Source: Bryobacterales bacterium
GTDB taxonomy: Bacteria > Acidobacteriota > Terriglobia > Bryobacterales > Bryobacteraceae
Length of the DNA stretch: 64,000 bases
Direction: 5' to 3'
NCBI GenBank assembly: GCA_003170915.1
Contig: PMYB01000234.1
Span: 1 to 64,000, forward strand
Each line of letters begins with the position of its first letter. Positions within the stretch are counted from its first letter, which is position 1. The notes beneath the pieces are model-generated. The model saw only the letters and a program-made list of their open reading frames with translations. It did not search any database and was not told where the DNA came from. A program made the position numbers and the translations under genes. Below, piece by piece: positions 7,830 through 37,369 of this stretch.

Positions 7830-7854
7830 GAATTCGATGGTACACTGGAAACGT

Positions 7855-12520: not shown

Positions 12521-13220
12521 CTAGAGCGAGCCGCATTTTCGATACAGGTCGCGGAGATAGGTGCCAGCCGCCAGTTCCGCGCGCGATCCGTCCTCTTGCC
12601 GTACTCTATCGGCCGCCAACCGCACCGCCTCCTGGACCATGGCACCGGGGACCACCACCACGCCGTCGAAGTCCGCCACGATCAGGTCACCCGGATGGAC
12701 CATGACTTCGCCGCATTCGACGGCTTCGTTGTAGCCAGTTACGATTCCACGCCCGAGGGAGCCGACCGGTTTAGGCCCGGCGGCAAATACCGGAAAGCCC
12801 AGCGCCTCGATTTGTTGCACATCGCGCACCAATCCATCCACCACCGCGCCGCGTGCACCGCGCGCCGAGGCGGCGGTGGAGAGCAGTCCGCCCCACGGCG
12901 CGCTGCACGTCGAGTGTCCGGTCGAAACTACAACCACGTGGTCGGGCTGAATGCTGTCCACGGCTTGAATCTCGGTATCGGAGGGCGTCGCGGAGATTTC
13001 CAACGTATCGACGCAGGAAATGGTGTGGGCCCACCCGGCCAGCCGGCAGCCGGCATGCACGGGCCTCAGGTACTCACGCATCGCCTGGTGGCGTGTCCCC
13101 AATTCGTCGAGTGCGTCGGAGAGGACTGCGGTATAGAGGCATTCTCCGACGTACGAGAGGAACTTGGGGCTGCGAATTTCGGCCGGGACAGGGAGGCGGC
13201 CGGAACGTGAGGCATTCATG
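12521..13220 (-). CDS. RraA-family protein (HMG/oxaloacetate aldolase-like)
   Basis: SDALDELGTRHQAM, ARGARGAVVDGLVRDVQQIEALGFPVFA, GDLIVADFDGVVVVP; start chosen at MNASRSG. Confidence 0.85.
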
Positions 13221-13304
13221 GCTGGCCTCAGATTAGCGGCAACGGAAGGCTTCGTCAAGCCGTACTTGACTCTCGGTGCAAGACTCTTCCAGAATACGGG
13301 AAGC

Positions 13305-14105: not shown

Positions 14106-14284
14106 GATCGCGGCGTGCGCGCGAGCCGGATCAGTTGCACAACACAGGTGTTCGGTTTGGAGCAGGCGGTGCTGGTCTCTTCACTGGGAGGCAGGCTGGG
14201 GTACCGGTTTCTTCCAGCTATCTGGACCAAAAGGCCGTCCGGACCCTCTTGGGCGTGCTGTATTGTCGTATACTTCCAGCCGGA

Positions 14285-15479: not shown

Positions 15480-15531
15480 AGAGTCGCGGCTGCGCACGGC
15501 ATCATCAAGACCAACAGATGTGAGGTGGAAT

Positions 15532-17598
15532 ATGCTTTGCAATCTGAACATTGTCAGGATTCTCGCGCTGGTTCCGTTGGCCTTGCTCACGGCCTCGGCG
15601 CAAACCGGGCCGGTGGTGCTCCAATCGCCGAACGGAACGCTCGAGATTTCAATTGCGACCGTACAGCGTCAGTCCGTGCAGGCGGCGGGCGGCCAACTGG
15701 CGTATCGCGTGGCTTTTCGCGGTCAGCCTGTGCTGGAGTGGTCGAACCTCGGGCTCGCCTTCGAGGGCTCGCCCGCACTCGGGCCGACTGTCCGTATCGA
15801 GTCGTCGCAGGCGTCCAGCCAGGACGAGACTTGGGCGCCTGTCGCAGGCAAGGCCAATCCCATACGCAACCACTACAACGCCGTCATGGTTCAGACGGTG
15901 GAGACGGCCCCGAACGGCCGGCGCCTGGTGGTGGAAGCCCGCGCGTACGACGAGGGCGTAGCCTTCCGCTACGTCGTGCCCGAGCAGCCTTCCCTGAAGG
16001 ATTTGCGCATCCTCAACGAGTCCACACAATTCCGCTTCTCCAAGGACGCACGCACCTTTTCTCTAATCTCGCGCGGCTTTGAGACCAGCAACGAGGACGA
16101 CTATCACGAACTGGCGATCAGCGGCCTGCACCCGGAGTACCTCGTCAACCTCCCGTTGCTGGTGGAAGTGCCGGGAATCGCCTGGGTCGGTCTGACGGAA
16201 GCGGACATCGAGGAGTACTCCAACCTGTTCGTGACCGCTTCGGGCGACCGGACAATGGCGGCGCGGCTGGCCATCCGCGTTGAGGACATCAACACCGACG
16301 CGAACATCGCCCCCTCCTTCGATCCCAAGGCGGATGCGTCGAAGGTATCGGTGATCGCGCAAACTCCCGTAAGATCGGGCTGGCGGGTGTTGATGATCGC
16401 GGATCAACCCGGACGGCTGGTGGAATCCAACATGGTGGTCAACTTGAATCCGCCCAGCGCCATCGGAGACACTTCCTGGATCAAGCCCGGCAAGACCTCC
16501 TGGAACTGGTGGAACGGCAGCCAGGCCAAGGGCGTCGCCAACCCCGGCATGAACAACGAGACCATGAAGTACTACATCGACTTCTCCGCGCGGAACAAGT
16601 TCGAGTTCCTGCTGATTGACGCCGGCTGGTCGGCGAACTTACCCACGCCGGCCGGCCAGGCGGGGCAGTCCCGGCGCGGGCGCGTGGACCTCACCAAGTC
16701 CATCGCGGCCATTGATATTCCGATGCTGGTCGAGTATGCGAAGTCGAAGAACGTACGCATCTGGCTGTGGGCTCATTTCCGGGACATGAACGACCAGATG
16801 GACCTGGCTTTCGCGCAGTTCGAAAAATGGGGCATCGCCGGTGCGAAGATCGATTTTATGGACCGCACGGACCAATGGATGGTGAACTGGTACCGGACGG
16901 CCGCGAAGAAAGCGGCTGAACACCACCTCATGGTCGACTTCCACGGTGCGTTCAAGCCCGACGGGATGCGACGCACCTACCCCAACGTGCTGACGCGCGA
17001 AGGCGTCATGGGCGCGGAGTACAACAAGTGGAGCGCGCGAATTACTCCCCAGCACGACGTGACGCTGGCCTTTACCCGCATGCTGGCGGGGCCCATGGAC
17101 TACACGCCCGGCGGGTTCGATAACGCGACCCGCGAGAATTTCGTGCCGCGCAACAGGGCGCCCATGGTGATGGGCACGCGCGCCCACCACACCGCGCTGT
17201 ATGTAGTCTTTGAAAGCGAGTTGCAGATGGTCTCGGATTCCCCCGACGCCTACGATGGGCAGAAGGAAACCGCGTTCCTCAGGGCGGTCCCGGCGAGCTG
17301 GGACGAGACCCGCGTTCTCAACGGTGTGCCGCCGAAGTACATCACCATCGCGCGGCGCCGCGGGAACGAGTGGTTCGTGGGCAGCATCACGGACTGGGAT
17401 GCGCGCGAGCTCGATGTGCCGCTTAGCTTTCTGGGGAGCGGCGCCTACGATGCGGAGATTTACGCGGACGGACCCAATGCGGTGGCGCAGCCGAAGGACT
17501 CGGTTGTCGAGAAACGTCGCGTGAATGGCCAGACTGTCTTGAAGTTGAAGCTGGCGCCGGGGGGCGGTAGCGCCATCCGGCTGGTCCCGGTTCACTGA
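15532..17598 (+). CDS. Glycoside hydrolase family 97
   Basis: Signal peptide; TSWNWWNG, YYIDFSARNKFEFLLIDAGW, GIAGAKIDFMDRTDQWMVNWY, HHLMVDFHGAFKPDGMRRTYPN, MDYTPGGFDNATRENF. Confidence 0.92.
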   Translation: MLCNLNIVRILALVPLALLTASAQTGPVVLQSPNGTLEISIATVQRQSVQAAGGQLAYRVAFRGQPVLEWSNLGLAFEGSPALGPTVRIESSQASSQDETWAPVAGKANPIRNHYNAVMVQTVETAPNGRRLVVEARAYDEGVAFRYVVPEQPSLKDLRILNESTQFRFSKDARTFSLISRGFETSNEDDYHELAISGLHPEYLVNLPLLVEVPGIAWVGLTEADIEEYSNLFVTASGDRTMAARLAIRVEDINTDANIAPSFDPKADASKVSVIAQTPVRSGWRVLMIADQPGRLVESNMVVNLNPPSAIGDTSWIKPGKTSWNWWNGSQAKGVANPGMNNETMKYYIDFSARNKFEFLLIDAGWSANLPTPAGQAGQSRRGRVDLTKSIAAIDIPMLVEYAKSKNVRIWLWAHFRDMNDQMDLAFAQFEKWGIAGAKIDFMDRTDQWMVNWYRTAAKKAAEHHLMVDFHGAFKPDGMRRTYPNVLTREGVMGAEYNKWSARITPQHDVTLAFTRMLAGPMDYTPGGFDNATRENFVPRNRAPMVMGTRAHHTALYVVFESELQMVSDSPDAYDGQKETAFLRAVPASWDETRVLNGVPPKYITIARRRGNEWFVGSITDWDARELDVPLSFLGSGAYDAEIYADGPNAVAQPKDSVVEKRRVNGQTVLKLKLAPGGGSAIRLVPVH

Positions 17599-22491: not shown

Positions 22492-23829
22492 ATGCAAATG
22501 TGGATCATTGCGGGCCGCTGCGCCGCCGGCGCGATCGTAGCGGCGGCGGCCGCCTTCCTTCCCGGGGCGGAAGTCATCGGGGACCAGAAGGCCGCGACCG
22601 GCTTCGTGTTCACCGAAGCATCGAAATACGATCCCACGGCGTGGATGGAAGGCCGCGACCGCTTCCCCGCCGGCGCGGCCCTGAAGATCTCGACCGGCGG
22701 CGCCCGCCGCGCGCTGGCGCCCGCGTTTCACGCCTCGGCCGACGCCACCATCTCCTTCGATGGCCAGCGGGTCCTGTTCGCCGGCAAGCCAACCGCCGGC
22801 GATTTCTGGCAAATCTGGGAAATGCCCCTCGCCGGAGGAACCCCGCGCCGCGTGTCGGCGGGTCAAGGCGATTGTGTGCGGCCCCTCTACCTCCCCGATG
22901 AGCGCGTGGTGTACACGCGCCTGGCAACCGCCGGTTCCGAAATCGAGGCCGCTGCTCTGGCCGGCGGAGAGGGCGGGCGCCTCACCTTCGCGCCCGGCCG
23001 CTACCTCACCGACGACGTGCTGCGCGACGGGCGCATCCTATTCGAAACCGGGCGGGACGGCCAGCGCGAGCTGTTCACTGTCTACCCCGATGGCACTGGC
23101 GTCGAAGCCGTCCGTTGCGACCACGGCAAAGACCGCGGCGATGCGCGGCAGCTTTCTTCGGGCGACGTGGTCTTCACCTCCGGCGCCCGGCTGGCGCGCT
23201 TCACTTCGGCGCTTGCGGCGCAAACCGATCTTTCGCAGCCGGCCCTTGAACCGGCGGGACCCGTGGCCGAAGTCGCGCCGGAAGCCTGGATTCTGGCCCT
23301 GCGCGGCAAGGACGGCCGCTTTGGCCTGTATGGTTGGGACGCGGCCACCAAACAGACGGAGCCACTCGTGATTCCGCCCTCCGGCAACGCGGTTCAGCCG
23401 GTGGTGGTGATGGCGCGCACAGCTCCGCCGCAATTCCCTTCCGCGCTGGTGCCCACCCGCACCGCCGGCAACCTGCTGTGCCTGGACGCGCGCGCCTCGC
23501 GCACGCCGCTTGCAGGCGCGGACATCCGCCGCGTGCGCATCTATACGCGCGGCGCCACCGGGGAGCCGGTGCTGCTCGGCCAGACCGTCCCCGAGCGCGA
23601 CGGCTCCTTCTACGTGCAGGTGCCCGCCGATCGGCCGTTGCGCATCGAGTTGACGGATGGCTCCGGCCGTACGGTCCGTGCCGAACAGGGCTGGTTCTGG
23701 ATGCGGCCCAGCGAGCAACGCGTCTGCGTGGGCTGCCATACCGGCCCCGAGCGCGCGCCGGAAAACAAGGTTCCCGAGATTCTGTTGAAGACTATCGTGC
23801 CTTTGAAAATGCTGGGAGACACGCCATGA
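22492..23829 (+). CDS. Exported propeller (TolB/PD40-like) protein with C-terminal CxxCH haem site (HzsA-middle-domain-like)
   Basis: Repeated propeller strands; C-terminal RVCVGCHTGPERAPENKVP. Confidence 0.7.
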   Translation: MQMWIIAGRCAAGAIVAAAAAFLPGAEVIGDQKAATGFVFTEASKYDPTAWMEGRDRFPAGAALKISTGGARRALAPAFHASADATISFDGQRVLFAGKPTAGDFWQIWEMPLAGGTPRRVSAGQGDCVRPLYLPDERVVYTRLATAGSEIEAAALAGGEGGRLTFAPGRYLTDDVLRDGRILFETGRDGQRELFTVYPDGTGVEAVRCDHGKDRGDARQLSSGDVVFTSGARLARFTSALAAQTDLSQPALEPAGPVAEVAPEAWILALRGKDGRFGLYGWDAATKQTEPLVIPPSGNAVQPVVVMARTAPPQFPSALVPTRTAGNLLCLDARASRTPLAGADIRRVRIYTRGATGEPVLLGQTVPERDGSFYVQVPADRPLRIELTDGSGRTVRAEQGWFWMRPSEQRVCVGCHTGPERAPENKVPEILLKTIVPLKMLGDTP

Positions 23830-25448
23830 AGACGATTTCGCGAGCGGGCCTGGCGGCGGGCCTCTGCCTGTTCGCTTGCGCGGCTTTTGCCGCGGACCCC
23901 ATCCGGTTCGAGGACGCGACCGCGCAATCCGGCATCCAGTTCACCCATTCCTTCGGCGCCGAGAAGCTTGGCTCGTTGCTCGAAAGCACCGGGGCCGGCT
24001 GCGTCTGGTTCGACTACAACAACGATGGCAAACCCGACCTGTTCGTGACTAGCGGGCGCCCCCTCGAAAAGGGCATGCACCCCTACCCCCTGCGCAAGGC
24101 GCCCGCTGTTCCCCCTCACAACCATCTCTATCGCAACGATGGCAACGGCAAGTTCACCGATGTCACCGAGCAGGCCGGGTTGACGGGCGGCGGCTTCAGC
24201 TTCGCCGCCATCGCCGCCGACTACGATAACGACGGCCTCACCGACCTGCTGGTCACCAGCTACGGCCACGTCACGCTGTACCGCAACAAGGGCGACGGTA
24301 CCTTCGAGGACGTCACCGCCAAGGCCGGTCTGGATGTCAAGGGCTGGGCCCTCGGTTCGGCTTGGCTCGATTACGACCGCGACGGCTGCGTGGACCTCTT
24401 CATCGGCCGCTACGTGAAGTTCGACCCCACCTATCGCTCCTACTACGCCGCCGACAACTATCCGGGACCGCTCGATTACGAGGGCGACACCAACCTGCTC
24501 TTCCACAACACCTGCAAGGGCACGTTCGTCGACGTGAGCGAGAAATCCGGCATCTCGAAATTCAAGGGCCGCACCATGGGCGTCACGGCGGCCGATTTCG
24601 ACGGCGACGGCTTCCCCGACATCTACGTGGCCAACGATAAGACCGAGAACTTCCTGTTCCACAACAAGCGCGATGGCACTTTCGAGGAGATCGCCACCGA
24701 AGCCGGCGCGGCCTTCGGGCAGAACGGCGAGAACACTTCCGCCATGGGTCCGGTGTTCTTCGACATGGCCAACAGCGGACACATGGATCTGTGGGTCACC
24801 GATTCCAAGTACAATCGGCTCCTCAAGAACACCGGCAAGCTGCCGTTCGAAGACGTGACCCAGCAGGCCGGCATCTCGCAGCAGCAAGCGCAGTACACCA
24901 GTTGGGGCACGGGCGTCCACGACTTCGACAACGACGGTCTGAAAGATATCTTCATCTTCCACGGCGGCCTGATCCACATGATCCCGCAGGAACACTCGCT
25001 CTTCAAGAATCTGGGCGGCGGCAAGTTCCAGGATGTCTCCACGACCGGCGGCCCGTTCTTCCAGGTCAAGAGTGTGGGACGCGGCGCCTGCTTCGCCGAC
25101 TACGACAACGATGGCAAGATCGACGCCTACCTGGTGAACCTCGGCGGCCCCGGGTACCTGCTGCACAACACCACCGCGGGGGCCGGGCACTGGCTCATGG
25201 TCCGGCTCGTCGGAACTAAGAGCAATCGGGACGGCATCGGCGCCGTGGTACAGGTGGAAGCGGGCGGGGTGAGGCAGAAATCGCAGCGCGTGGCGGGATC
25301 GGGCTACCTGGGCCAGGACGACTGGCGGCTGCATTTCGGACTCGGGGCCGCGACCAAGGCCAGGGTTTCGGTGACCTGGCCCAGCGGCAAGCAACAGGTA
25401 AAGGAAAATGTTTCGGCGGATCAGATTCTCGTCGTTACGGAACCGTAG
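23826..25448 (+). CDS. CRTAC1 family protein (FG-GAP repeats plus ASPIC/UnbV)
   Basis: Multiple DYDNDGxxDLxV repeats; GTKSNRDGIGAVVQVEAGG and LHFGLGAATKARVSVTWPSG ASPIC/UnbV end; ATGA overlap with upstream gene. Confidence 0.92.
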   Translation: MKTISRAGLAAGLCLFACAAFAADPIRFEDATAQSGIQFTHSFGAEKLGSLLESTGAGCVWFDYNNDGKPDLFVTSGRPLEKGMHPYPLRKAPAVPPHNHLYRNDGNGKFTDVTEQAGLTGGGFSFAAIAADYDNDGLTDLLVTSYGHVTLYRNKGDGTFEDVTAKAGLDVKGWALGSAWLDYDRDGCVDLFIGRYVKFDPTYRSYYAADNYPGPLDYEGDTNLLFHNTCKGTFVDVSEKSGISKFKGRTMGVTAADFDGDGFPDIYVANDKTENFLFHNKRDGTFEEIATEAGAAFGQNGENTSAMGPVFFDMANSGHMDLWVTDSKYNRLLKNTGKLPFEDVTQQAGISQQQAQYTSWGTGVHDFDNDGLKDIFIFHGGLIHMIPQEHSLFKNLGGGKFQDVSTTGGPFFQVKSVGRGACFADYDNDGKIDAYLVNLGGPGYLLHNTTAGAGHWLMVRLVGTKSNRDGIGAVVQVEAGGVRQKSQRVAGSGYLGQDDWRLHFGLGAATKARVSVTWPSGKQQVKENVSADQILVVTEP

Positions 25449-27279
25449 GCCGGTTCGGCCGCTGCTGGCCCTGGCCCTCCTCGCCCTGGGATGGGCGCTG
25501 GCGGGGCAGGATGTTCCGCGCTATCCCAGCCCGGTGGATCTGGCGGTGTCGCCGGATGGCCAGCGCCTGTACGTGGTCTGTGAGGGCACCGACGAGTTGC
25601 TGGCCGTGGACACGGCCGCCCAATCCATCGCCGGCCGCGTCAAGGTGGGGCGCGTGCCCCAGGGCATCGCGCTCTCGCCAGGCGGCCAGCGTATCTACGT
25701 GACGAACTCCTGGTCCGATACGGTCACCGAGATCGATGCCGCCTCGCTCGGCGTGCTACGCACGCTGCCGGCCGGGTTTGAGCCGCACGGTATCGCCGCG
25801 GGCAACGGATCTCTGTTCGTGGCCAACCGCATCGGCAGCGACGTGTCGGCGATCGACCTCTCCACCGCCCAGGACGCGCGGCATCTCCCGGCCGGCCGCG
25901 GCGCCAGCTACGTGGCGGCATCGCCCGGCGGCCAGCGCGTCTACGTCACCCACATCTATCCCAACCCGGGACCCTTCCGCAGCCAGCCCGAATCCGAAAT
26001 CACCGAAATCGATACGGAGCACCAGGTGGTGGTCTCCCGCACCCGCCTGCACAACGCCGCCGGCATTTTTCACGTGGCGATTTCGCGCGACGGCCGCCTC
26101 GGCCTGGCGGCGCAACTGCGCCCCAAAAACCTGATCCCGCTGGCCCACGTGGCGCACGGCTGGGCCTTCGGCGATTCGCTCGCGGTCTTCGGCGAGGATA
26201 TCGGAGACGCGGTGCAGCTTCCGCTCGACGAGTTGGACCGCTACTTCTCCCTGCCCTTCGGCGTGGCCATCGCACCGGACAAGAGCAAGGCCTACCTTTC
26301 GGCCAGCGGCTCCAACGAGGTCGCCATTCTGGACCTGCCGCGCCTGGTCGAGGCGGCCCGCTCGCCCGGCCGGGCCGCGCTCGCCAACGATCTCTCGGCT
26401 TCCGCCGCCTACGTGTTGGCGCGCATTCCCGTGGGGCGCAATCCCAAGGGCATCGCGCTCTCGCCCGATGGCGGCAAGCTGTACGTGGCCAACCGGCTCG
26501 ACGATACCGTGTCGGTGCTCGATACCGCGAAGGGCAGGATCGCCGCCACCATCCCGCTTGGCGGCGCGGCCACGCTGACCGCGGAACGGCGCGGCGAGCG
26601 CCTCTTCTACTCCTCGAGGTACGCCTTCCAGGGCCAGTTCGGCTGCGCCAACTGCCACCTGGATGCCACCATCGACGGCCTCTCCTGGGACCTCGAACCG
26701 GATGGCTTCGGCGTCGACATCGTCGATAACCGCTCGCTCGAGCAGGTGGGCGATACCGCGCCTTACAAGTGGAACGGCTCCAACCCCGACCTGCAAACGG
26801 AATGCGGCCCGCGCACCGAGCGGTTCTTCTTCCGCTCGCAGGGTTTCGCCGGCGCCGACCTGGAGGACTTGGTGAGCTTCATCAAGTCGATTCCCCTCCG
26901 CCCCAACCGCTTTCGCCAGCCCGATGGCGAACTGACACCGGCCCAGGAGCGCGGCAAGGCCATTTTCGAGCGCACTACCAGGAAGGACGGCACCGAGATT
27001 TCGGAGCTGCTGCAGTGTTTCGTTTGTCATGCGGGCAAGGACTACACCAACCAGCAACTGGCGGAAGTAGGCACCTTTAAGGAAACCGACCGGTCGCCCA
27101 AGGTGGACGTGCCGCAGCTCATCAACGTGGGGAACACCGCGCCCTACCTCCACGACGGCTCGGCGCGAACGCTGGAAGAGATCTGGACGGTCTTCAACCC
27201 CAAGGACCAGCATGGCGTCACTAACGACCTCTCCAAGGACGAGTTGAACGACCTGATCGAGTATCTGAGAACCCTATGA
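25408..27279 (+). CDS. YncE-like beta-propeller fused to di-haem cytochrome c (peroxidase/MauG-like)
   Basis: YVTN-type repeats (GKLYVANRLDDTVSVLDT), CANCH and CFVCH haem motifs, NTAPYLHDGSARTLEEI. Confidence 0.88.
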   Translation: MFRRIRFSSLRNRRPVRPLLALALLALGWALAGQDVPRYPSPVDLAVSPDGQRLYVVCEGTDELLAVDTAAQSIAGRVKVGRVPQGIALSPGGQRIYVTNSWSDTVTEIDAASLGVLRTLPAGFEPHGIAAGNGSLFVANRIGSDVSAIDLSTAQDARHLPAGRGASYVAASPGGQRVYVTHIYPNPGPFRSQPESEITEIDTEHQVVVSRTRLHNAAGIFHVAISRDGRLGLAAQLRPKNLIPLAHVAHGWAFGDSLAVFGEDIGDAVQLPLDELDRYFSLPFGVAIAPDKSKAYLSASGSNEVAILDLPRLVEAARSPGRAALANDLSASAAYVLARIPVGRNPKGIALSPDGGKLYVANRLDDTVSVLDTAKGRIAATIPLGGAATLTAERRGERLFYSSRYAFQGQFGCANCHLDATIDGLSWDLEPDGFGVDIVDNRSLEQVGDTAPYKWNGSNPDLQTECGPRTERFFFRSQGFAGADLEDLVSFIKSIPLRPNRFRQPDGELTPAQERGKAIFERTTRKDGTEISELLQCFVCHAGKDYTNQQLAEVGTFKETDRSPKVDVPQLINVGNTAPYLHDGSARTLEEIWTVFNPKDQHGVTNDLSKDELNDLIEYLRTL

Positions 27280-28337
27280 GACACAAGGTCCTCGCCGCAC
27301 TCTGTTTAGCTTCCGGGCTTCTGGCCCAGAACATGCCCCGCTTCCGCTGGGAGAATTTCACCACCGCTCAGGGGCTGCCGGACGACCGCGTTTACAGCGT
27401 CTGCGTGGATGGCGACCGCGTCTGGGCGGGCACCGATAACGGCCTGGCGGTCTACGAAAGAGGCAAGTGGAAAGTCTTCACGCCGGCCGACGGCCTGGCC
27501 CATCGCGCGGTGCTTTACGTGACGCTCGACAAGCGCACCCACGACGTGTGGATGGCCACCATGGGCGGTCTGAGCCGCTACTCGGCCGGCCGCTTCGACA
27601 CCTTCACGCAGCTCAACAGCGGACTCGCCAACGACGTGGTCTACGGCGTTTCCGTGCTGGACGATTTCGTGTGGGTCGCCACCGCCGCCGGCGGCAGCCG
27701 CCTCAATACGCGCACCGGCCAGTGGAGCCTGTACAACGAGCGCAACACGCCCATGTACGAGATCTGGACCTACTCCGTGACCGCGGCCGAAGACAAGGTC
27801 TACTACGCCGTCTGGGGCGGGGGCGTGCTCGAGTACGACGTGAAGACCGACCACTGGAAAGATTACAACGACCCGGATGGGGAAACCGAGCTGGTGCTCT
27901 TCAAGGACCAGGGGTTGATCCACGAAATCACCACCTCGGTCAGCTACGTCAACAAGATCCTGTGGGTGGCTACTTACTTCGGCGCAAGCCGCTACGACGG
28001 CCGCAACTGGCATAACTTCCTGCAGAAGGATAGCGGCCTCCCCAGCGACTTCCTGAACCAGGTGAAGTCCACGGACGGCACGCGGGCGTGGTTCTCCACC
28101 GACAAGGGTCTCGCCTATTTCGACGGCGAGAACTGGGCGACTTACCGTCCCGCGCTCGATACGCGCGCGCCCGAAATGCTGGTGCGCGACTCGCAGGGAA
28201 AGGTCACGCGCGTGGCCGTGGATACGGCGCCCGCGCATCACTACACGTTCGGCGTCGATTTTCAGGGCGACGACGTGTGGGTGGCCACGGCCAAGGGCCT
28301 GAGCCACGGAATCCGAATCCAAGGGGAAACCAAATGA
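27276..28337 (+). CDS. Two-component-regulator-propeller-like (Reg_prop) exported protein
   Basis: ENFTTAQGLPDDRVYSVCVDGDRVWAGTDNGLAVYERGKWKVFTPADGL repeats; no kinase domain; ATGA overlap. Confidence 0.8.
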   Translation: MRHKVLAALCLASGLLAQNMPRFRWENFTTAQGLPDDRVYSVCVDGDRVWAGTDNGLAVYERGKWKVFTPADGLAHRAVLYVTLDKRTHDVWMATMGGLSRYSAGRFDTFTQLNSGLANDVVYGVSVLDDFVWVATAAGGSRLNTRTGQWSLYNERNTPMYEIWTYSVTAAEDKVYYAVWGGGVLEYDVKTDHWKDYNDPDGETELVLFKDQGLIHEITTSVSYVNKILWVATYFGASRYDGRNWHNFLQKDSGLPSDFLNQVKSTDGTRAWFSTDKGLAYFDGENWATYRPALDTRAPEMLVRDSQGKVTRVAVDTAPAHHYTFGVDFQGDDVWVATAKGLSHGIRIQGETK

Positions 28338-28822
28338 CAATCACAGAGGCTCTGGAACAATTGGAAGGCGTACAGCAGGTCAAGCGCCGCGCGGTCAGCA
28401 ACCCGGAAGTGCTGAGCGAGGCGTACGCTTACGAGCATCCCAGCTCATTCTCCCGCGCCTTGCGCATCGACCTGAACGGCCTGGTCATTCTGCTCATATC
28501 CGGCACAGCCAGCGTCGACGAAGAGGGGCGGTCGGTCCATATCGGCGATTTCCGCGCGCAGTTGCGGCGAACCTACTACAACATCACCGGGCTGCTGGCC
28601 GCCGAAGGCGCCACCTGGAAGGACATCGTGCGGACCACCTGCTATCTGCGCGATATCGAGCGCGACTACGCCGCGTTCAACGAAGAGCGCACGGCGTTCT
28701 TCAAGGGACAGCAGCTCGATCCGCTGCCCGCCTCCACCGGCATCCAGGCCATCCTGTGCCGGCCCGAGCTTCTGGTGGAGATCGAAGCCATCGCCATGTT
28801 CATTCCGGCGAAGGAGAAGTAG
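28334..28822 (+). CDS. RidA (YjgF/YER057c/UK114)-like protein
   Basis: ILLISGTASVDEEGRSVHIGDFRAQLRRTYYNITGLLAAEGATWKDIVRTTCYLRD pattern; ATGA overlap with upstream gene. Confidence 0.75.
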   Translation: MTITEALEQLEGVQQVKRRAVSNPEVLSEAYAYEHPSSFSRALRIDLNGLVILLISGTASVDEEGRSVHIGDFRAQLRRTYYNITGLLAAEGATWKDIVRTTCYLRDIERDYAAFNEERTAFFKGQQLDPLPASTGIQAILCRPELLVEIEAIAMFIPAKEK

Positions 28823-28824
28823 TC

Positions 28825-30618
28825 ATGCGGGCGCCGATCGGTATCGCCTTCGCAATGCTGGTGTGCGCCGCCGCCTTCGGGCAGCCCGGCCCCTGCTCGT
28901 GCGGCGCCCATCCGCCCGGGCCGCCCGCCAATCGCACGCTCGAGCCGTACGCGGGCGCGCCCGACGACCTCCGGCCGTTCAACCGCTTCACCAAGCCCTA
29001 CTACGAGTTCTACACCAAGCTGGTCGAATACAACGGCGCGGCGCGCGACGCCGCGACCGTGAAGCCTTCGGAAGTCTCCGAAGTGCCGATCGGCTTCCTC
29101 GGCCCCATCTCCGAGCACAAGGACATCGCTCTGGGCCAGGCCATGCTCCGCGGCGCGCAGATGGCCATCGACGAGGCCAACGCCCGCGGCGGCTACGGCG
29201 GCAAACCGTTCCGCCTCAAGATCCACAACGACGGCGCGGTGTGGGGAGCGTCCTCCAACGAGATCGTCAAGATGGTCTACGACGAAAAGGTCTGGGCCAT
29301 GCTGGGCTCCATCAGCGCCGACTCCACGCACATCGCCCTGCGCGTCTCCCTGCGGGCCGAATTGCCCATAGTGAACAGCGCCGCCACCGACCCCACCATT
29401 CCCGAGACCATCGTCCCCTGGATCCTAACCACTATCCAGGACGACCGCGTGCAAGGCTACACCCTCGCGCGCCGCATCTACACCGATCTCGGACTGAAGC
29501 GCGTGGCGCTGCTGCGCGTCAACGAGCGCTACGGGCGCTTCGGCATTCTCAAGTTCAAGGACGCATCGCGCCGCTTGGGGCACCCCGTGGTGATCGAGCA
29601 AAAATTCGCGCCGTCGGACACCAGCTTCACCCGCAACCTACGCGTGATCAACGATTCGCGCGTGGATGCCATCGTGCTGTGGGCCGACGCCGCGGCCGCC
29701 GGCACGATTCTCAAACAGATGCAGCAAATGGGGATGAAGCAGCCGGTCTTCGGCGCCTCGCGCGTGGTGGGTGAAGACCTGTTCCGCATCGCCGGTCCCG
29801 CCGCGGATGGGCTCGAAGTGGTGTATCCCTACGACCCCAACCGCGACGACCCCGCCTGGCTGGATTTCCAGAAGCGCTTCGCAAGCAAGTTCCAGGACAA
29901 GGTGGACGCCTTCTCCGCGCTCGGCTTCGACACCATGAACATACTGCTCGACGCCATCTGCCGCGCGGGTCTGAACCGCGGCGGCATCCGCGACGCACTC
30001 TACGGTCTGGAGCGCTATAAAGGCGTGACCGGCGAGATGGTGTTCGACCCCAACGCCAAGAACATCGCGCCGCTCTACCTGGGTAAGGTGAAGGACGGCA
30101 GGATCGCCTACCGGCGGTACACCATGGACAAGCCCTACGCCACCGTGGGCGAGCGCGGGGTGGAATACAACGGACCGCCCGTCGCCGACGCCGCCGGCCC
30201 CAAGCCGACCATCGGAGTCTTCGGCCCAGCCGCCGAAACCGCCGTGGTGGCCCTGCGCGAGCCGGGCTACCGCATTGTCGGCGTGTCTTCGGAAGCGGCC
30301 TGGGGCAAGGCCTCCACGGAACTGGTAAATCTCTTCTACGACCCCAGCACCATCGGGCTGGTAGCCACCGACCGCGCGTCGGCCCACCTGGCCGAACAGA
30401 TCGCGGTGAAGACCTTCCTTCCCGTGATTGCGCTTTCGGCCGACCGCAAGCTGACCTCGACCAACATTCCGTGGATCTTCCGGCTGGCGCCCGAAACGCC
30501 CTTGAGCGACGCGGTCCGCTGCCTCGCTGAAGCGGTCGAGAAGGCCGGCCCCAACCGCGCGAAGGTCCGCGATTACCTGGCTTCCGGGCGCTTCGGTTCC
30601 ACCGGGGAGTTGCGGTAG
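28825..30618 (+). CDS. Branched-chain amino acid-type periplasmic binding protein, 1.5 domains, no ABC partner nearby
   Basis: Signal peptide; IGFLGPISEHKDIALGQAMLRGAQMAIDEANARGG...; second half-domain IGVFGPAAETAVVALREPGYRIVG.. Confidence 0.85.
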   Translation: MRAPIGIAFAMLVCAAAFGQPGPCSCGAHPPGPPANRTLEPYAGAPDDLRPFNRFTKPYYEFYTKLVEYNGAARDAATVKPSEVSEVPIGFLGPISEHKDIALGQAMLRGAQMAIDEANARGGYGGKPFRLKIHNDGAVWGASSNEIVKMVYDEKVWAMLGSISADSTHIALRVSLRAELPIVNSAATDPTIPETIVPWILTTIQDDRVQGYTLARRIYTDLGLKRVALLRVNERYGRFGILKFKDASRRLGHPVVIEQKFAPSDTSFTRNLRVINDSRVDAIVLWADAAAAGTILKQMQQMGMKQPVFGASRVVGEDLFRIAGPAADGLEVVYPYDPNRDDPAWLDFQKRFASKFQDKVDAFSALGFDTMNILLDAICRAGLNRGGIRDALYGLERYKGVTGEMVFDPNAKNIAPLYLGKVKDGRIAYRRYTMDKPYATVGERGVEYNGPPVADAAGPKPTIGVFGPAAETAVVALREPGYRIVGVSSEAAWGKASTELVNLFYDPSTIGLVATDRASAHLAEQIAVKTFLPVIALSADRKLTSTNIPWIFRLAPETPLSDAVRCLAEAVEKAGPNRAKVRDYLASGRFGSTGELR

Positions 30619-30629: not shown

Positions 30630-32291
30630 TTAGGGGTTCTTCGCCGAGAGCCGCCCGCCTTCCACGCATTCGTACGCGCCCACGGCCACACCCTCAAAAC
30701 CCTGCACGCCGCCGCTGGGCCACTCGATCGCCACGCGATCCGCCCTGTCGCGTCTGGCCAGACCGAACGTCAGGGTCGGCTCCGATTGCGAGAGGTAGCT
30801 CGATCCGGTCTTCACCATGCGCGACTGCGTGCCGTCGGGAGTCGTCACTCGCACCACGGCGCCGATCGCGTCGCGGTTCGATTTCGTCCCGATCAGCCGC
30901 ACGCGCAGCGAACGGTACCCCGGCGTCACGTCGTTGCGGTAGAGGTATGCCGGCCCCTGGTTGGTGGTCAGCAGAATGTCCACGTCGCCATCGCGATCGA
31001 AGTCTCCGTAGGCCAGCCCGCGCGCCACTTTGGGCGCCGCGAAACCCCCTCCGGCCAGCGCCGCGACGTCGTGGAAGCCCCCCTTGCCGTCGTTGAGAAA
31101 CAGGTGCGGCGCCTGGGCGTAGCCCACGTTGCCGTGGATGTGGCGCACGGTTTCGTCGATATGCCCGTTGGCCGCCAGCAGATCGAGATACCCGTCCAGG
31201 TTGACATCCACGAAGGCGCATCCGAAGCCCAGGCTGTTGATCGACGCCGTCCCCACGCCGGATTTGTATGCCACGTCCTTGTACGTGCCGTCGCGGGCCA
31301 GTTTGTAGAGCGCCATCATCTCGTTGTCGAAATTGGTGATGACGATCCCGCTGGCGCCGGAGTTATCGAAATCGCCCACGTCCACCCCCATGCCGGCGCG
31401 CGCCTTGCCGTCTTCGCTGAACGCCACGCCCGCGCGCACGGCCACGTCCTCGAAGGTACCGTTGCGCAGGTTGCGGTACAGCTTGTTGGGCTGCGTGTCG
31501 TTGGCGATCAGCAGATCCGCCCAGCCATCGCGATCGTAATCCACCAGCGCCACCCCCAGCGATTTCGAGCTGGTATCGAAAATGCCGCTTTTCGCCGTGA
31601 CGTCCTCGAACGTGCCGTTGCCGCGATTGCGGAACATCCAGCACGTTTCTCCGTGGTAAGCTTCCGGCGTGCAGTAGGATTTCTTCTTTCCGTCCAGGCT
31701 GCAGAACACGTCGTGCTCGGGCGACCACTTGACGTAATTGCACACCACCAGGTCCAGCAGTCCATCGCGGTCGAAATCGAACCACGCCGCCGACGTGCTG
31801 AAAGCCTGCCGCCCGCCCAGCCCGGCCTTCTCTGTGACGTCGAGGAAACGCCCGCGGCCGTCGTTCTGAAACAAGCGGTTCTGCCCCACGGCGGTGACCA
31901 GGATATCGGGGAAGCCGTCGTTGTTATAGTCGGCGATGGCCACCCCCATGCCGTACATCTCCACTGCCAGTCCGGCACGCTCGGTGACGTCCGTAAATGT
32001 GCCGTTGCGGTTGTTGCGGTACAGCTTCATGGTGCTGCGCTGCCGCTTGTGCCCCGGCCAGTCCATGCCGTTCACCAGCAGAATGTCCAGCCAGCCGTCG
32101 CCATCGTAGTCGAAGAACGCGCACCCTGGAGCCATGGTTTCCGGCAGGTACTTGGCGCCGAAAGCCCCGCTGTTGTGCTGGAATGCGATGCCCGCTGCCG
32201 CGGTGATGTCGGTCAGCCGGAACCCCAGCGGCGCCGCCGCGCGAGCGGCCGCTGCCGCCACCGCCCCGAGCGTGAACTCCCGCCGCGTCAC
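30630..32291 (-). CDS. CRTAC1 family protein (FG-GAP plus ASPIC/UnbV), Tat-type leader
   Basis: TRREFTLGAVAAAAARAA; FDYDGDGWLDILLVNGMDWPG; GTKSNRDAIGAVVRV. Confidence 0.92.
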   Translation of the reverse strand: MTRREFTLGAVAAAAARAAAPLGFRLTDITAAAGIAFQHNSGAFGAKYLPETMAPGCAFFDYDGDGWLDILLVNGMDWPGHKRQRSTMKLYRNNRNGTFTDVTERAGLAVEMYGMGVAIADYNNDGFPDILVTAVGQNRLFQNDGRGRFLDVTEKAGLGGRQAFSTSAAWFDFDRDGLLDLVVCNYVKWSPEHDVFCSLDGKKKSYCTPEAYHGETCWMFRNRGNGTFEDVTAKSGIFDTSSKSLGVALVDYDRDGWADLLIANDTQPNKLYRNLRNGTFEDVAVRAGVAFSEDGKARAGMGVDVGDFDNSGASGIVITNFDNEMMALYKLARDGTYKDVAYKSGVGTASINSLGFGCAFVDVNLDGYLDLLAANGHIDETVRHIHGNVGYAQAPHLFLNDGKGGFHDVAALAGGGFAAPKVARGLAYGDFDRDGDVDILLTTNQGPAYLYRNDVTPGYRSLRVRLIGTKSNRDAIGAVVRVTTPDGTQSRMVKTGSSYLSQSEPTLTFGLARRDRADRVAIEWPSGGVQGFEGVAVGAYECVEGGRLSAKNP

Positions 32292-32911
32292 GCGATGCTC
32301 ACCAGCCCCTTGCGAATGGCGTACACCACCACCTCCGCCGTATTGTGCTTCCCCAGGGCCTGCATGATGTTGGCGCGGTGCACCGCCACGGTATTCACGC
32401 TCAATCCCAGCACGGCGGCGATCTCCTTATTGGACTTGCCATGCACGATCAGTTGCAGCACCTCGAGCTCCCGCGTGGTCAGGTTGGGCCGCACATCGTC
32501 CACTTCCGCAAGCGATCCCAACCGGCGGTCGAGCACGCGCCTGCCCGCGGCCACCTGCTTTACCGCGTCCACCAGCTCCAGATCCATGGCGTTCTTGAGC
32601 AGATATCCGCGCGCCCCCGCATCCAGGCAGGTTCGCACGTACGACGGCTCGGAATGCATACTCAGGATCAGCACCGGCATGTCCGGCATCGATTTCAGAA
32701 TGTGGCGCGTCGCCACCGCGCCGTTCATGCTGGGCAGGGCGAAATCCATCACCACCACCGAAGGCCGCAGCTCCAGCGCGGCTGCCACGGCTTCCGGCCC
32801 GTCGCTGGCTTCGCCGATCACCGTGATGCCGGGATCGTCCTCCAGCATCCGGCGAAAGCCGCGCCGCACCAGGGCGTGATCGTCCACCAGCAGTACGGAG
32901 ATCTCAGCCAT
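32288..32911 (-). CDS. NarL/LuxR-family response regulator
   Basis: VLLVDDHALVRRGFRRML receiver; LTTRELEVLQLIVHGKSNKEIAAVLGLSVNTVAVHRANI HTH. Confidence 0.95.
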   Translation of the reverse strand: MAEISVLLVDDHALVRRGFRRMLEDDPGITVIGEASDGPEAVAAALELRPSVVVMDFALPSMNGAVATRHILKSMPDMPVLILSMHSEPSYVRTCLDAGARGYLLKNAMDLELVDAVKQVAAGRRVLDRRLGSLAEVDDVRPNLTTRELEVLQLIVHGKSNKEIAAVLGLSVNTVAVHRANIMQALGKHNTAEVVVYAIRKGLVSIA

Positions 32912-34199
32912 CGCTTTCCTCCCGCGCGGTCGGAACCGTCAGGCGGACCAGCACCCCGCCGCCCGTGCGGTCGAGAAACTCCACCCGGCCATTCACCAGA
33001 TCCGCGCGCTCGCGCATCGAAACCAGCCCCATGCCCTGCTTCCCCGTCTTGCCGAACCCAACGCCTTCGTCTTCCACTTCGAGCACCAACGATTCCGGCA
33101 GAAACCGCAGCCGGACGGCGGCCTGTTTCGACTTCGAATGGCGCGCGATATTGCTCAAGGCCTCCTGCACCACGCGGTACAGGTGAATCGCCACCTCGCG
33201 GTCCAGCTCGCGGCTCGGACCGTCTTTCTCATATCGTATGGCGATCCCCGTCTGCTTTTCAAAACCAGGCAAGTACTGGCCGAGCGCGCTCTCGAACCCG
33301 ATCTCGTCCAGGCTCGCGGGATGCAACGCGCGCGACAAAGAGCGCACCTTCTCGAGCGCGGCTTGTACGATCTCCTGTACCTCGCGCAGATCCGCGCGCA
33401 GCGCGCCCGGGTCCTCCAGGCGCCTCTCGCTTCGCTGCAGCATGGTCCCGATGGCCGTCAGCACCTGGCCGAAATCGTCGTGCAGTTCGCGGGAGATCGA
33501 GCGGAAGGTGCTCTCCTGCATGGAGATCAGTTGCTGGGCCAGCTCGCTGCGGCGTTCCGAAAGCGTGGCCACCTGCTCGAACATCCTGCGGTTGTACTGC
33601 ACCAGGTACAAGCTCGTCAAGACGATCGGCACCAGCATGGCCACGAGAAAGATGTACACGTTTCGTTCCGCGCGCGTGTAGATTTCGTGCGTGCGCCGCG
33701 CGGCTTCCTGCTCGGTCTCGTTGTTCTGCACCAGCAGTCGCGCCACGGCTGTGCTCAAGGCCTCCTGCCGGGCCTGCAGTGAGAGCTGGATCATGGTGCG
33801 CCCTTCGCCCTCTTTGCCCTCGCGGCCCAGCGCGAAGACACGGTCCAGCGCGTCCCAGAACTGCGCCACCGAAGACGTCAGGTAGCTGCGCTGCCCGGAC
33901 GTGCGGTCCGAAGGCGAGTACCGCTCTTCCTTCGCCAGGGCGTCTTCCAGATCGGTGCGGATGCGCTTGAACTGCGCCTGCCAGGCCGTCAGCGGATACG
34001 GCTCATTGCCGTCCACCATGTCGCGCATGGCGAGCGCCAGCGAATTCAGATTGTTCTGGATGCGCAGCAGCAGCAGCGAGTCCGTGCGGTTGCGGTCGAT
34101 GGTGGTGGCCTGCAGCTCGCGCAGCCCGCGAAGCTGATCGATGGTGTACGCCGAGTATACCGCTACCGCCGAAAGCGTCACCGCCAGGCCGGCCAGCAA
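32904..34199 (-). CDS. HisKA_3-type sensor histidine kinase
   Basis: SISRELHDDFGQVLTAIG H-box; LEVEDEGVGFGKTGKQGMGLVSMRERADLVNG ATPase. Confidence 0.93.
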   Translation of the reverse strand: MLAGLAVTLSAVAVYSAYTIDQLRGLRELQATTIDRNRTDSLLLLRIQNNLNSLALAMRDMVDGNEPYPLTAWQAQFKRIRTDLEDALAKEERYSPSDRTSGQRSYLTSSVAQFWDALDRVFALGREGKEGEGRTMIQLSLQARQEALSTAVARLLVQNNETEQEAARRTHEIYTRAERNVYIFLVAMLVPIVLTSLYLVQYNRRMFEQVATLSERRSELAQQLISMQESTFRSISRELHDDFGQVLTAIGTMLQRSERRLEDPGALRADLREVQEIVQAALEKVRSLSRALHPASLDEIGFESALGQYLPGFEKQTGIAIRYEKDGPSRELDREVAIHLYRVVQEALSNIARHSKSKQAAVRLRFLPESLVLEVEDEGVGFGKTGKQGMGLVSMRERADLVNGRVEFLDRTGGGVLVRLTVPTAREESDG

Positions 34200-34315: not shown

Positions 34316-37300
34316 ATGAGTCGATTGGCGGTGTTCCTGGCGGCGTGCGGCGGCGGAGCGCTCCTGGTTGCCCAACTGAACCAGCCCGATGCGGTCCGCC
34401 TGTGGCACTACCGGAATCTCGGCAAGGCCTTCTACGAGAACCCCACCACCCAGAAGGAGGCGGTGGACCAGTTCCGCCAGGCGCTCGCGCTGGCGCCGGA
34501 TTCCCCGCGCGAGCTGTTGAACTACGGCCTCGCGCTGCTGCGCGCGGGCGAGATCGAAAGCGGCACCGCGCAGATCGAGAAGGTGCAGAAACTCGAACCC
34601 AAGCTCCCCCATTCCTGGTTCAACCTCGGCATCGCGCTGCAGAAGCAGGGCGAATTCGACCGCGCCTTCACCCAGTTCCAGGGCATGGCGCGGCTGGCGC
34701 CGGATGATCCGATCACCCATTACCACTTGGGCACGCTCTACAAATTGCGGGGCGATCAGGCCGCCGCCATCCGGGAGTTTGAAACCGCGCGCAAGCTTCA
34801 GCCGAGGCTGGCGGCGGCGCATTTCCAGCTCTATGGAATCTATCGCCAGGCCGGCCGCGCGGCGGACGCAGCCACCGAGCTCCAGATCTTCCAGGACCTC
34901 AAGAAGCAGACGGAAGGCGCCGCCGTCCCCGAAGATGTGGATTGGTCGGCCTACTCCGAAATCTACGACCCCATCGACGGTCCGCCTTCGGCGCCGCCCG
35001 CCGCGCCCGTATACCGCGATGAGAAGATCGCCGGAGGATTCGGCCAAGGTCCCTCCGGCGTCGTGGCGCTCAGGCTCGATGCCGGCGCGCGGCCGAGCCT
35101 GATCGCGTGGTCCTCCGAACGCGTCGCGGTGTTCCGCTACGGCACCCAGGCCGTGCGCGATTCCGGCCTGGAAAGCCTGCGCGACGTAGTCTCGATCGCT
35201 CCCGGCGATTTCGACAACGACGGTCTTCCCGACCTCTGCGTCATCACTTCCCGAGCTGCGCTGCTCTACCGGAACGTCAAGGGCAAGTTCCAGCAGCAGG
35301 CCACCCTGGCCACCGGTTCCTTCCGCAAGGCCGTGTGGATCGACTACGACCACGACTACGATCCCGACCTCGTCCTGCTGGGCGACGACTCCCGCCTCCT
35401 GCGCAACAACGGCGCCGCCGGATTCAGCGACGAAACCAGGCGCTTCCCCTTCGTGGCGGGCCGCGCGCTCGATGCCGCGCTGTTCGATCTGGAACCCGAC
35501 ACCCCCGGATTCGACCTCGTGGTCTCTTACCAGGATCGCCCCGGCGTGCTCTATCGCGACAAACTGGGCGGCGCCTACCAGGCCGTCACGCTCGACGCGC
35601 TGCCCGCGGGCGCCGCGCACCTGGTGGCGCGCGATTTCAACCGCGACGGGCGCACCGATCTGGCTTTCGGGGCCGGTCTCCTTCTGCTAAATCGCAACGC
35701 CCGGCTCCAGTCCGAAACCGCGCTGAAGTCCGTCGTCGTCGCCGGCTCCGTTCTTGCCGATTTCCAAGGCAATGGCCGCCTCGATCGCGCCCTCATTTCC
35801 GCCGATGGTACGCTCGTGATCGAGCGCGATGTCACGCCCAACTACGGCGACTGGATCGAGATCGCGCTCACCGGCGTCAAGAACGAGAAGCTCGCCCTCA
35901 ACGCCAAGGTGGAAGTCAAAGCCGGCACAAGCTACGAGAAGGCCACTTACGAAGGACTGCCTCTGGTGTTCCGCCTGGACAGCCGCGCCGTCGTGGACAC
36001 GGTGCGCATCACCTGGGCCAACGGGCTGGTGCAGAACGAAACCGGACAGGCCGTCAACCGCGTGGTGTCCATCACCGAAGCGCCGCGCCTCGCCGGCTCC
36101 TGCCCCATGATCTTCACCTGGAACGGCGAGCGCTTCAACTTCGTCACCGACGTGCTGGGCGTGGCGCCCCTGGGTGCTAGTTCCGGCGACGGCCACTACT
36201 TCCCCGTGGACCACGATGAGTACGTCTCGATTTCCGGCGACATGCTCAAGCCCCGCGAAGGCCGCTACCAAGTCCGCATGACCGAGGAACTGCGCGAGGT
36301 CTCCTATATCGACCAGATCGAGCTCATCGCGCTCGATCACCCCGCCGGCATCGGCGTCGTCACCAACGAGAAGTTCAAATCGCCGCCGTTCCCGGAATTC
36401 CGCCTCTTCGGCGTGGACCGCAAAATCCACCCGCTGGCCGCGCGCGATTCCCGCGGCGCAGACGTGCGGGAGGCGCTGAGCAAACAGGACCGCGTGTACC
36501 CCGACTCCTTCCGGCGCGACCATGCGGGCGTGGCCGAAATGCACAACCTCGACCTGGATTTCGGCCCCGTCGCGAGATCCAACCACGCCGTGCTGGTGCT
36601 CCAGGGCTGGGTCGACTGGGCCGACGGCAGCACCTTCCTTTCCGCCATGCAGGAGCACAACGACCTCACCTTCCCTTACATCCAGGTGAAGGACCCCGCA
36701 GGCAACTGGAAGACCGTAGTGGAGGACATGGGGATTCCGTCGGGCAAGCCCAAAACCATGGCGGTGGATCTGACCGGCAAGTTCCTCTCGCCCGCGCGCG
36801 AGGTGCGCATCGTAACCAACTTGTGCGTCTACTGGGACGAGATCTACCTGGTGGAGGACAGCGCCGCGCCGCCCGCGCGCCTCACCAGCGTTCCCATGCT
36901 CTCCGCCGATCTGGGTTTCCGCGGATTCTCCAAAGCCGTCATTCACCCCGAACGCAAGCAGCCCGAAATGTTCGATTACCAGACCGTGAGTTTCACGTCC
37001 ATGTGGAACCCCACGCCCGGCAACTACACTCGCTACGGCGCGGTGGAGAACCTGCTGGCCAGGCCCGATGACCGCATGGTCGTCATGGGCTCCGGCGACG
37101 AGCTACGCATGCTCTTCGGCGCCGCCGGGCTCCCCGCTCTGCCGGACGGCTGGAAACGCGATTTCCTGCTGCTTGTGGATGGCTGGGCCAAGGACGCCGA
37201 CGCCAACACGGCGTTTTCGCAATCCGTGCTGCCACTGCCCTTCCATGGCATGAGCGCCTATCCCTATCCCGCTCGCGAAAACTACCCAAGCGACCATATC

Positions 37301-37369
37301 CACGCCGATTACCAGCGCCAATACAACACCCGTCCCGCGTTGCGCCTCATCCGGCCGCTGACCGAGTAG
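34316..37369 (+). CDS. TPR plus CRTAC1/FG-GAP/ASPIC protein, 1017 aa
   Basis: N-terminal TPR repeats; PGDFDNDGLPDLCV, FNRDGRTDLAFGAG, ASPIC-like VRITWANGLVQNE. Confidence 0.85.
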   Translation: MSRLAVFLAACGGGALLVAQLNQPDAVRLWHYRNLGKAFYENPTTQKEAVDQFRQALALAPDSPRELLNYGLALLRAGEIESGTAQIEKVQKLEPKLPHSWFNLGIALQKQGEFDRAFTQFQGMARLAPDDPITHYHLGTLYKLRGDQAAAIREFETARKLQPRLAAAHFQLYGIYRQAGRAADAATELQIFQDLKKQTEGAAVPEDVDWSAYSEIYDPIDGPPSAPPAAPVYRDEKIAGGFGQGPSGVVALRLDAGARPSLIAWSSERVAVFRYGTQAVRDSGLESLRDVVSIAPGDFDNDGLPDLCVITSRAALLYRNVKGKFQQQATLATGSFRKAVWIDYDHDYDPDLVLLGDDSRLLRNNGAAGFSDETRRFPFVAGRALDAALFDLEPDTPGFDLVVSYQDRPGVLYRDKLGGAYQAVTLDALPAGAAHLVARDFNRDGRTDLAFGAGLLLLNRNARLQSETALKSVVVAGSVLADFQGNGRLDRALISADGTLVIERDVTPNYGDWIEIALTGVKNEKLALNAKVEVKAGTSYEKATYEGLPLVFRLDSRAVVDTVRITWANGLVQNETGQAVNRVVSITEAPRLAGSCPMIFTWNGERFNFVTDVLGVAPLGASSGDGHYFPVDHDEYVSISGDMLKPREGRYQVRMTEELREVSYIDQIELIALDHPAGIGVVTNEKFKSPPFPEFRLFGVDRKIHPLAARDSRGADVREALSKQDRVYPDSFRRDHAGVAEMHNLDLDFGPVARSNHAVLVLQGWVDWADGSTFLSAMQEHNDLTFPYIQVKDPAGNWKTVVEDMGIPSGKPKTMAVDLTGKFLSPAREVRIVTNLCVYWDEIYLVEDSAAPPARLTSVPMLSADLGFRGFSKAVIHPERKQPEMFDYQTVSFTSMWNPTPGNYTRYGAVENLLARPDDRMVVMGSGDELRMLFGAAGLPALPDGWKRDFLLLVDGWAKDADANTAFSQSVLPLPFHGMSAYPYPARENYPSDHIHADYQRQYNTRPALRLIRPLTE

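Follow-up and report, generated by a model that had tools for sequence, protein, structure and literature searches.

Introduction

To our knowledge, hydrazine synthase (HZS), the key enzyme of anaerobic ammonium-oxidizing (anammox) bacteria, was long thought to be without relatives, and its homologues outside anammox bacteria are without known function. We analyzed a six-gene operon located at 22492-30618 of a 64,000-nucleotide stretch of DNA (the whole of which is called “the window” hereafter) from a Bryobacterales bacterium (assembly GCA_003170915.1, contig PMYB01000234.1, positions 1 to 64,000 of the forward strand), in which homologues of the alpha, beta, and gamma subunits of HZS are encoded together. 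Judging from sequence, we consider it highly probable that this operon is a non-anammox member of the HZS superfamily and belongs to a system that does not make hydrazine.

The closest described systems are the alpha-CRTAC1-betagamma clusters published in December 2025 by Hagglund et al. (PMC12758564), whose text sorts them into clades I-III and rejects hydrazine synthesis. According to that text, alpha lies upstream of a fused beta-gamma gene in clades I and II, with a CRTAC1/FG-GAP gene between them, and substrate-binding proteins lie downstream in clade III. The authors of another study (PMC10732223) proposed that the enzyme family is broader and includes members acting on other substrates, as well as possible anammox in metagenome-assembled genomes (MAGs) of the Phycisphaerae UBA1845, where an hzsA-like gene adjoins a fused hzsBC-like gene. 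As for the anammox enzyme itself, zinc is bound by His587 of the alphaI CxxCH, the haem is ligated by Tyr591, and gammaI is anchored by a third cysteine (PMC12607021 and the text of PMC12758564).

Organization of the Operon

The six genes of the operon are designated A to F, as follows:
Gene A (P0001, 445 aa), 22492-23829, + strand: exported short HzsA-like protein with a TolB-type propeller, an HZS-alpha middle domain, and one CVGCH
Gene B (P0002, 540 aa), 23826-25448, + strand: exported CRTAC1-like FG-GAP propeller with an ASPIC/UnbV domain
Gene C (P0003, 623 aa), 25408-27279, + strand: exported HzsB-HzsC-like fusion of a 7-bladed propeller and a MauG/cytochrome c peroxidase (CCP)-like di-haem part with two CxxCH
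Gene D (P0004, 353 aa), 27276-28337, + strand: exported Reg_prop-type propeller lacking kinase and DNA-binding domains
Gene E (P0005, 162 aa), 28334-28822, + strand: Rid-family protein without evident signal peptide, with Ser for the RidA catalytic Arg and the chorismatase-like motifs GTAS and CRPELLVEIE
Gene F (P0006, 597 aa), 28825-30618, + strand: orphan periplasmic binding protein (Peripla_BP_6) whose C-terminal part is a second, truncated binding-protein domain

An earlier note on this DNA, made from the letters alone, had described six tightly packed frames here; all are present where it had placed them, with ATGA junctions at 23826, 27276, and 28334 and a 2-nt gap at 28823-28824. The 41-nt overlap of genes B and C at 25408-25448 was upheld as well: an upstream stop at 25399 closes the gene C frame, and the later start considered at 25453, beside the signal peptide, is GTT, which is no start codon; we, thus, retained the overlap. 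The three CxxCH motifs are indeed spread over two proteins, one in gene A and two in gene C, and a signal-peptide-like N-terminus can be read in genes A, B, C, D, and F but not in gene E. The general picture of exported haem and propeller proteins forming one co-transcribed-looking periplasmic redox module is supported. The statement that the binding protein comes with neither permease nor ATPase stands for the ATPase, since no open reading frame (ORF) pairs a Walker-A with an ATP-binding cassette (ABC) signature in a motif scan of the window, in which permeases were not scanned separately; likewise, no ABC transporter family recurs at the 32 representative loci described below, permeases again not being scanned separately.

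Genes A and C Are Homologues of Hydrazine Synthase

The relationship of gene A, which the earlier note had missed, is with HZS alpha: it matches PF18582, the Pfam model of the alpha middle domain that is the site of its catalytic haem, at E 3.8e-14; with a profile built from 38 alpha homologues, 5c2v_A (Kuenenia enzyme, chain A) is matched at E 2.4e-53 over both the propeller and the middle domain; and its AlphaFold2 model (pLDDT, the predicted local distance difference test, 89.6) has 5c2v_A as its top fold match in PDB, with a template modelling (TM) score of 0.76 by query length. Gene C, whose kinship with HZS beta-gamma had also been overlooked, matches NF052342, the NCBI model of the fused hydrazine synthase beta-gamma, at E 7.1e-56, under the curated cut-off, and a profile from 20 of its homologues finds 5c2v_B at E 2.7e-64 and 5c2v_C at E 4.4e-36. 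Its AlphaFold2 model matches the fold of 5c2v_B (TM 0.88 by target length); the propeller is well modelled, the di-haem part has pLDDT below 50 in places, and no residue geometry was drawn from it.

One has to keep in mind that the NCBIfam scores are far under the curated cut-offs (53 vs. 800 bits for alpha, 190 vs. 1250 for the beta-gamma fusion); we, thus, call genes A and C homologues and not orthologues. Other models also recognize parts of gene C, namely an MbnH model for the gamma part (E 2e-10, PDB 6e1c) and TIGR03866, a YncE/pyrroloquinoline quinone (PQQ)-associated model, for the beta part (E 3e-28).

Compared with anammox HzsABC (PDB 5C2V), the alpha propeller and middle domain, the beta propeller, the gamma di-haem part (by sequence only), and the gamma third cysteine are common to both; the window differs by the lack of Tyr591 and of the alphaII domain, by a Trp in place of gammaHis144, by a reversed gene order, and by extra partner genes, and the anammox pathway genes were not found.

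Comparison with the Published Clusters

The earlier note did not recognize the gene order as a named system, which can no longer be said: alpha stands upstream of a fused beta-gamma gene with a CRTAC1 gene between, as the text of PMC12758564 describes for clades I and II, and gene F follows downstream, as do the substrate-binding proteins of clade III. The window operon also has two beta-gamma haem motifs, no alphaII, and no extra haems, for which we liken it to clade II, by the description given in that text. It, thus, joins a known cluster type. New with respect to the text of PMC12758564 are the partner genes D, E, and G (the latter a DAHP synthase, see below), their statistics, and the breadth in Acidobacteriota. 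Indeed, Reg_prop, Rid, and DAHP synthase go unmentioned in that text, which has no match to RidA, regulator, or “Acidobacteri” and in which Paludibaculum is the only acidobacterium we saw named; its figures or supplements may draw extra genes. In the literature searched, we found no description of Reg_prop as an obligate partner, of the arginine-less Rid/chorismatase-like protein, or of a DAHP synthase in three positions.

The UBA1845 MAG OFTM5 was recovered in our scan as locus L129 (42% identity), with the hzsA-like and fused hzsBC-like genes adjoining as in the window; unlike in the window, this short contig showed no CRTAC1, Rid, or binding protein in their vicinity.

Active-Site Residues

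The residues of the alpha haem site set the operon apart from the anammox enzyme. The gene A motif reads CVGCHTGPE against CSGCHYGSY in the latter. Of 85 homologues, 74 have Glu at position +4 after the alpha CxxCH, the others have Ala, Ser, or Asn, and none has Tyr. In a pairwise alignment, Glu falls opposite Tyr591 without a gap; the profile alignment has a two-residue gap instead, as the text of PMC12758564 likewise reports at this position. Glu is, thus, no more than a candidate for replacing Tyr as the alpha-haem ligand. The haem alphaII domain is absent, P0001 ending 29 residues past its sole CxxCH.

On the gamma side, the equivalent of gammaCys165 is Cys466 of P0003, and a cysteine is found there in 84 of the 93 homologues that could be scored by motif. 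In the text of PMC12758564, this extra cysteine is a feature of clade I; in our set, non-octahaem proteins have it too. GammaHis144 is replaced by Trp in gene C and gammaAsp168 is not conserved; both CxxCH and a PYLH(D/N)G motif are retained in the gene-C proteins, and Trp455 (in PYKWNG), of CCP/MauG type, is invariant.

Hydroxylamine oxidoreductase (HAO)/hydrazine dehydrogenase and NirK were looked for in the 20 genomes carrying gene C: the former family (PF13447) is without a match in 14 of them, among which is the window genome (82% complete), and no NirK scores above the cut-off in any of the 20. With Tyr591 and alphaII missing and no HAO-family protein found, we agree with the text of PMC12758564 that such clusters are not hydrazine synthases; the product of the operon is very probably not one.

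Conservation and Gene Order across Genomes

We compared 81 genomes, i.e., the window genome and 80 relatives, and found gene C at E<=1e-40 in 20 of them; in an even sample of the phylum, it is present at E<=1e-120 in 14 of 297 genomes, with a patchy distribution. A genome-wide scan yielded 80 named loci, which are the best 80 of more than 500 and, thus, a sample and not a census. These are mostly from Acidobacteriota, with others from Opitutaceae, Pirellulales, Thermogutta, Phycisphaerae, a deltaproteobacterium, and MAGs labelled Chlorobiota and Verrucomicrobia. The neighbourhood search that the earlier note had called for, thus, shows the order recurring across several phyla.

Over 101 loci chosen for encoding gene C (a set in which some come from the same genome fetched twice, and in which losses at contig ends are uncorrected), gene A is present in 86, B in 88, D in 93, E in 73, and F in 89. 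The recurrence of genes A, B, D, and F is beyond chance. Most of the loci have one of the orders ABCDEF, GABCDEF, HGABCDEF, ABCDF, EABCDF, ABCDEGF, and ABCDFE, where G is a DAHP synthase and H an amidase. At 32 representative loci, wide recurrence is limited to A-F and G, and no family from outside the module occurs in more than 6 loci; a response regulator is found at 6 loci, and a GMC-type oxidoreductase, identified by its sequence, at 3.

A quick maximum-likelihood tree of gene C (99 rows, midpoint root, with neither Brocadiales nor named clade II members) places the octahaem proteins in one group. A 58-row acidobacterial group holds the window, and its 36-row subclade has DAHP synthase upstream of gene A; apart from the window group, several members of a 12-row group have it between E and F, and the long-branched locus L114 has it after F. 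From these separate positions, the association with DAHP synthase arose or moved at least twice, and probably three times.

Partner Genes B, D, and F

Gene B (PF13517 1.3e-53, PF07593 6e-19) lies nearly always between A and C where it is found. CRTAC1 paralogues are frequent in these genomes (up to 17 matches), too common for CRTAC1 and the regulator pair next to the operon to serve as specific markers of the module, and we discarded them as such. The distribution of gene D (PF07494 1.2e-6), rich in invariant Trp and Tyr residues, mirrors that of gene C: its homologues (E<=1e-40) turn up in precisely those 18 of the 81 genomes whose gene C reaches E<=1e-100, the 63 others having none, and Reg_prop is on this distribution an apparent obligate partner of the HzsBC-like gene. 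Gene F (PF13458 9e-50) has 4gnr as its nearest solved structure; its residues 431-597 (167 aa) are a shortened second binding protein and match the separate second binding protein of the paralogous locus L029 (E 5.9e-11). The picture is that of genes A and C with fixed partners B, D, and F and, as usual companion, gene E, a chorismatase-like Rid protein by its motifs.

Gene E and a Possible Chorismate Link

Gene E has the Rid fold (PF01042 1.8e-18), from which enamine or imine products had been suggested in the earlier note. Imine hydrolysis by RidA requires its catalytic arginine, Arg105 (PMC4433059); in P0005, this position is a Ser and belongs to a PASTG motif that 70 of the 73 operon copies share, and we dropped the imine chemistry for gene E, since the catalytic arginine is missing. 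The conserved residues resemble the C-terminal domain of chorismatases, with GTAS in 73/73 copies and CRx(D/E)LLxEIE in 64/73; the chorismatase model TIGR04444 is matched by all 19 gene-E members scanned, P0005 reaching 28 bits against a cut-off of 325, and a two-domain relative has 5ag3 as its nearest solved match. Gene E, thus, has fold family and motifs in common with RidA and with the chorismatases FkbO, Hyg5, and XanB2, and differs from them in having one domain, scores below curated cut-offs, and no RidA arginine.

The same 18 genomes (gene C at E<=1e-100) all carry gene E, as do 11 others of the 81, and it is, thus, not exclusive to the module. A DAHP synthase gene accompanies the operon, inside it or next to it, at 39 of the 101 loci, in three different positions and in separate gene-C clades.

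Several side observations concern these genes. In or near some operons, two-domain chorismatase-like proteins occupy the position of the small Rid protein of other loci (L107 4679-5860, L122 2850-3977, L123 7091-8467); those of L107 and L122 (376-394 aa) are inside the operon. Among stand-alone relatives of gene E, shikimate-pathway or aromatic neighbours occur at 3 of 19 sites: chorismate synthase near L136 5953-7122, prephenate dehydratase and UbiA near L140 5022-6957, and DAHP synthase near L141 8366-8992. Examples of the operon-associated DAHP synthase are L072 5865-6764 and L115 13583-14485, with 37 other loci, and an amidase stands upstream of it in many Acidobacteriaceae operons (L074 4331-5767 and 16 other loci, i.e., 17).

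A Second Copy in the Window Genome

The genome of the window holds another version of the module:
L029 (G000:C76), 4692-15678: second, diverged copy with all six families present

It comprises a Rid protein, a 690-aa HzsA-like protein, CRTAC1, a 977-aa HzsBC-like protein, Reg_prop, and two separate binding proteins. The HzsBC-like protein has ten CxxCH, with two c554 domains in front forming an octahaem c554-type extension, i.e., eight extra haems as in clade I of the text of PMC12758564; the HzsA-like protein is longer, with CX4CH as a candidate second haem motif. Identity between the two copies is 72% for E (the highest of the members compared), 47% for D, 42% for C, 37% for F, and 25% for A.

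Proposed Function and Rival Explanations

The best explanation as a whole, to which we give a probability of roughly 0.6, is a non-hydrazine system of the HZS superfamily built around a two-site periplasmic haem enzyme, perhaps with a chorismate-linked substrate. A and C would form a periplasmic complex shaped like HZS, in which haem gammaII would exchange electrons, entering or leaving, with a cytochrome c, a role that the fused eight-haem c554 domain would fill in the paralogous operon. Haem gammaI, a predicted open site with the extra anchoring cysteine and the CCP/MauG-type tryptophan, would transform a small substrate, the product of which would travel along a beta-lined route to the alpha haem. 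Genes B and D could act as scaffold or gate, and gene F would capture the substrate. The chorismatase motifs of gene E, together with the recruitment of DAHP synthase, suggest that substrate or product may be tied to chorismate-derived aromatic metabolism.

These parts do not have the same standing. For the two-site periplasmic redox enzyme, we see about even odds; the link of the substrate to chorismate is tentative and on the doubtful side, and the full proposal of a haem enzyme of HZS architecture acting on a chorismate-derived aromatic, made or handled by gene E and the recruited DAHP synthase, is less likely still. Several points weigh against this reading: the binding of A to C is drawn from HZS and synteny only; 9 of the 93 scorable gene-C proteins have Asp or Ala where the third cysteine should be; gene-E members score higher on Rid models than on the chorismatase model; most stand-alone gene-E copies have unrelated, non-shikimate neighbours; and the small gene-C clade of the window itself has no DAHP synthase in the operon.

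Among the alternatives, the one that survives best, albeit unlikely in our view, is that the di-haem part of gene C oxidizes residues of a partner protein, e.g., CRTAC1 or Reg_prop, in the manner of MauG or MbnH, the operon being a protein-maturation system. MauG, MbnH, and bacterial CCP are indeed di-haem relatives of the C-terminal part of gene C (MbnH model E 2e-10, PDB 6e1c), the invariant tryptophan is of their type, and the invariant Trp and Tyr of gene D could be seen as targets; unlike them, however, gene C joins its di-haem part to an HzsB-like propeller in one protein and is genetically linked to an HzsA-like protein, and these alpha and beta parts, unneeded by MauG, are retained here. 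Moreover, the gamma active site of HZS is joined to alpha by a small-molecule tunnel (PMC12607021), and no known cofactor-precursor motif was identified.

An exported redox or ligand sensor, with F and the propeller D signalling to a two-component system, for instance the LuxR-type pair at 32288-34199, is a still weaker candidate. An orphan binding protein and a Reg_prop propeller without transport genes would suit it, as would the histidine kinase/response regulator pair lying next to the operon on the opposite strand and the related regulator fragment that flanks L029; yet a related regulator is present in only 6 of the 32 representative loci, HZS-type haem machinery exceeds the needs of a sensor, and the eight-haem domain of the paralogue implies electron flux.

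The reading offered in the earlier note, an analogue of PQQ-alcohol-dehydrogenase loci with CRTAC1 replacing the quinoprotein and RidA clearing carbonyl or imine compounds, is very improbable: the beta part does resemble YncE/PQQ-associated propellers (TIGR03866 E 3e-28) and the binding protein is an orphan, but HZS models outscored every other functional model (7e-56) and make HZS alpha and beta-gamma the nearest kin of genes A and C, gene E has no RidA catalytic arginine, and no quinoprotein family recurs at the 32 representative loci, and we dropped the analogy. Least credible of all is a working hydrazine synthase, with these Acidobacteria performing anammox-type or NO-detoxifying hydrazine chemistry, since the three homologous subunits of similar fold and the beta-gamma fusion, as in Scalindua (PMC10732223 and the text of PMC12758564), are opposed by the absence of Tyr at +4 in all 85 homologues, the missing alphaII domain of the window protein, the Trp at gammaHis144 and loss of gammaAsp168, and the lack of HAO/hydrazine-dehydrogenase-family matches in the window genome (82% complete) and 13 other carriers and of NirK above its cut-off in the 20.

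The HZS-superfamily reading places the locus within a large family in soil and peat Acidobacteria with fixed partners, for which Reg_prop, the Rid/chorismatase-like protein, and a DAHP synthase recruited in separate clades are handles on function. It also calls for caution in metagenomes, where matches to “HZS_alpha” or “hydrazine synthase” should not be taken as a sign of anammox. Were the chorismate proposal true, the reaction would be of the kind that gave rise to hydrazine synthesis, a carboxylate (Glu) standing at the position of the anammox Tyr haem ligand. Identifying the substrate would make the origin of biological hydrazine synthesis testable.

Other Genes in and around the Loci

At some loci, a GMC-type oxidoreductase, by its N-terminal sequence, follows the binding proteins (L038 14122-15822, L105, and L109); in L105, it is followed by a further small ORF that resembles gluconate dehydrogenase subunit 3. 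L037 4383-6179 encodes an HzsA-like protein extended by a multihaem (c7-like) tail, which brings its CxxCH motifs to four. In the window, a second CRTAC1-like protein, a LuxR-type response regulator, and a histidine kinase lie on the minus strand at 30630-34199, facing the 3' end of the operon, an arrangement not kept beside most other operons. Downstream of the regulator pair, a plus-strand ORF of 1017 aa at 34316-37369 has weak similarity to CRTAC1 (22%).

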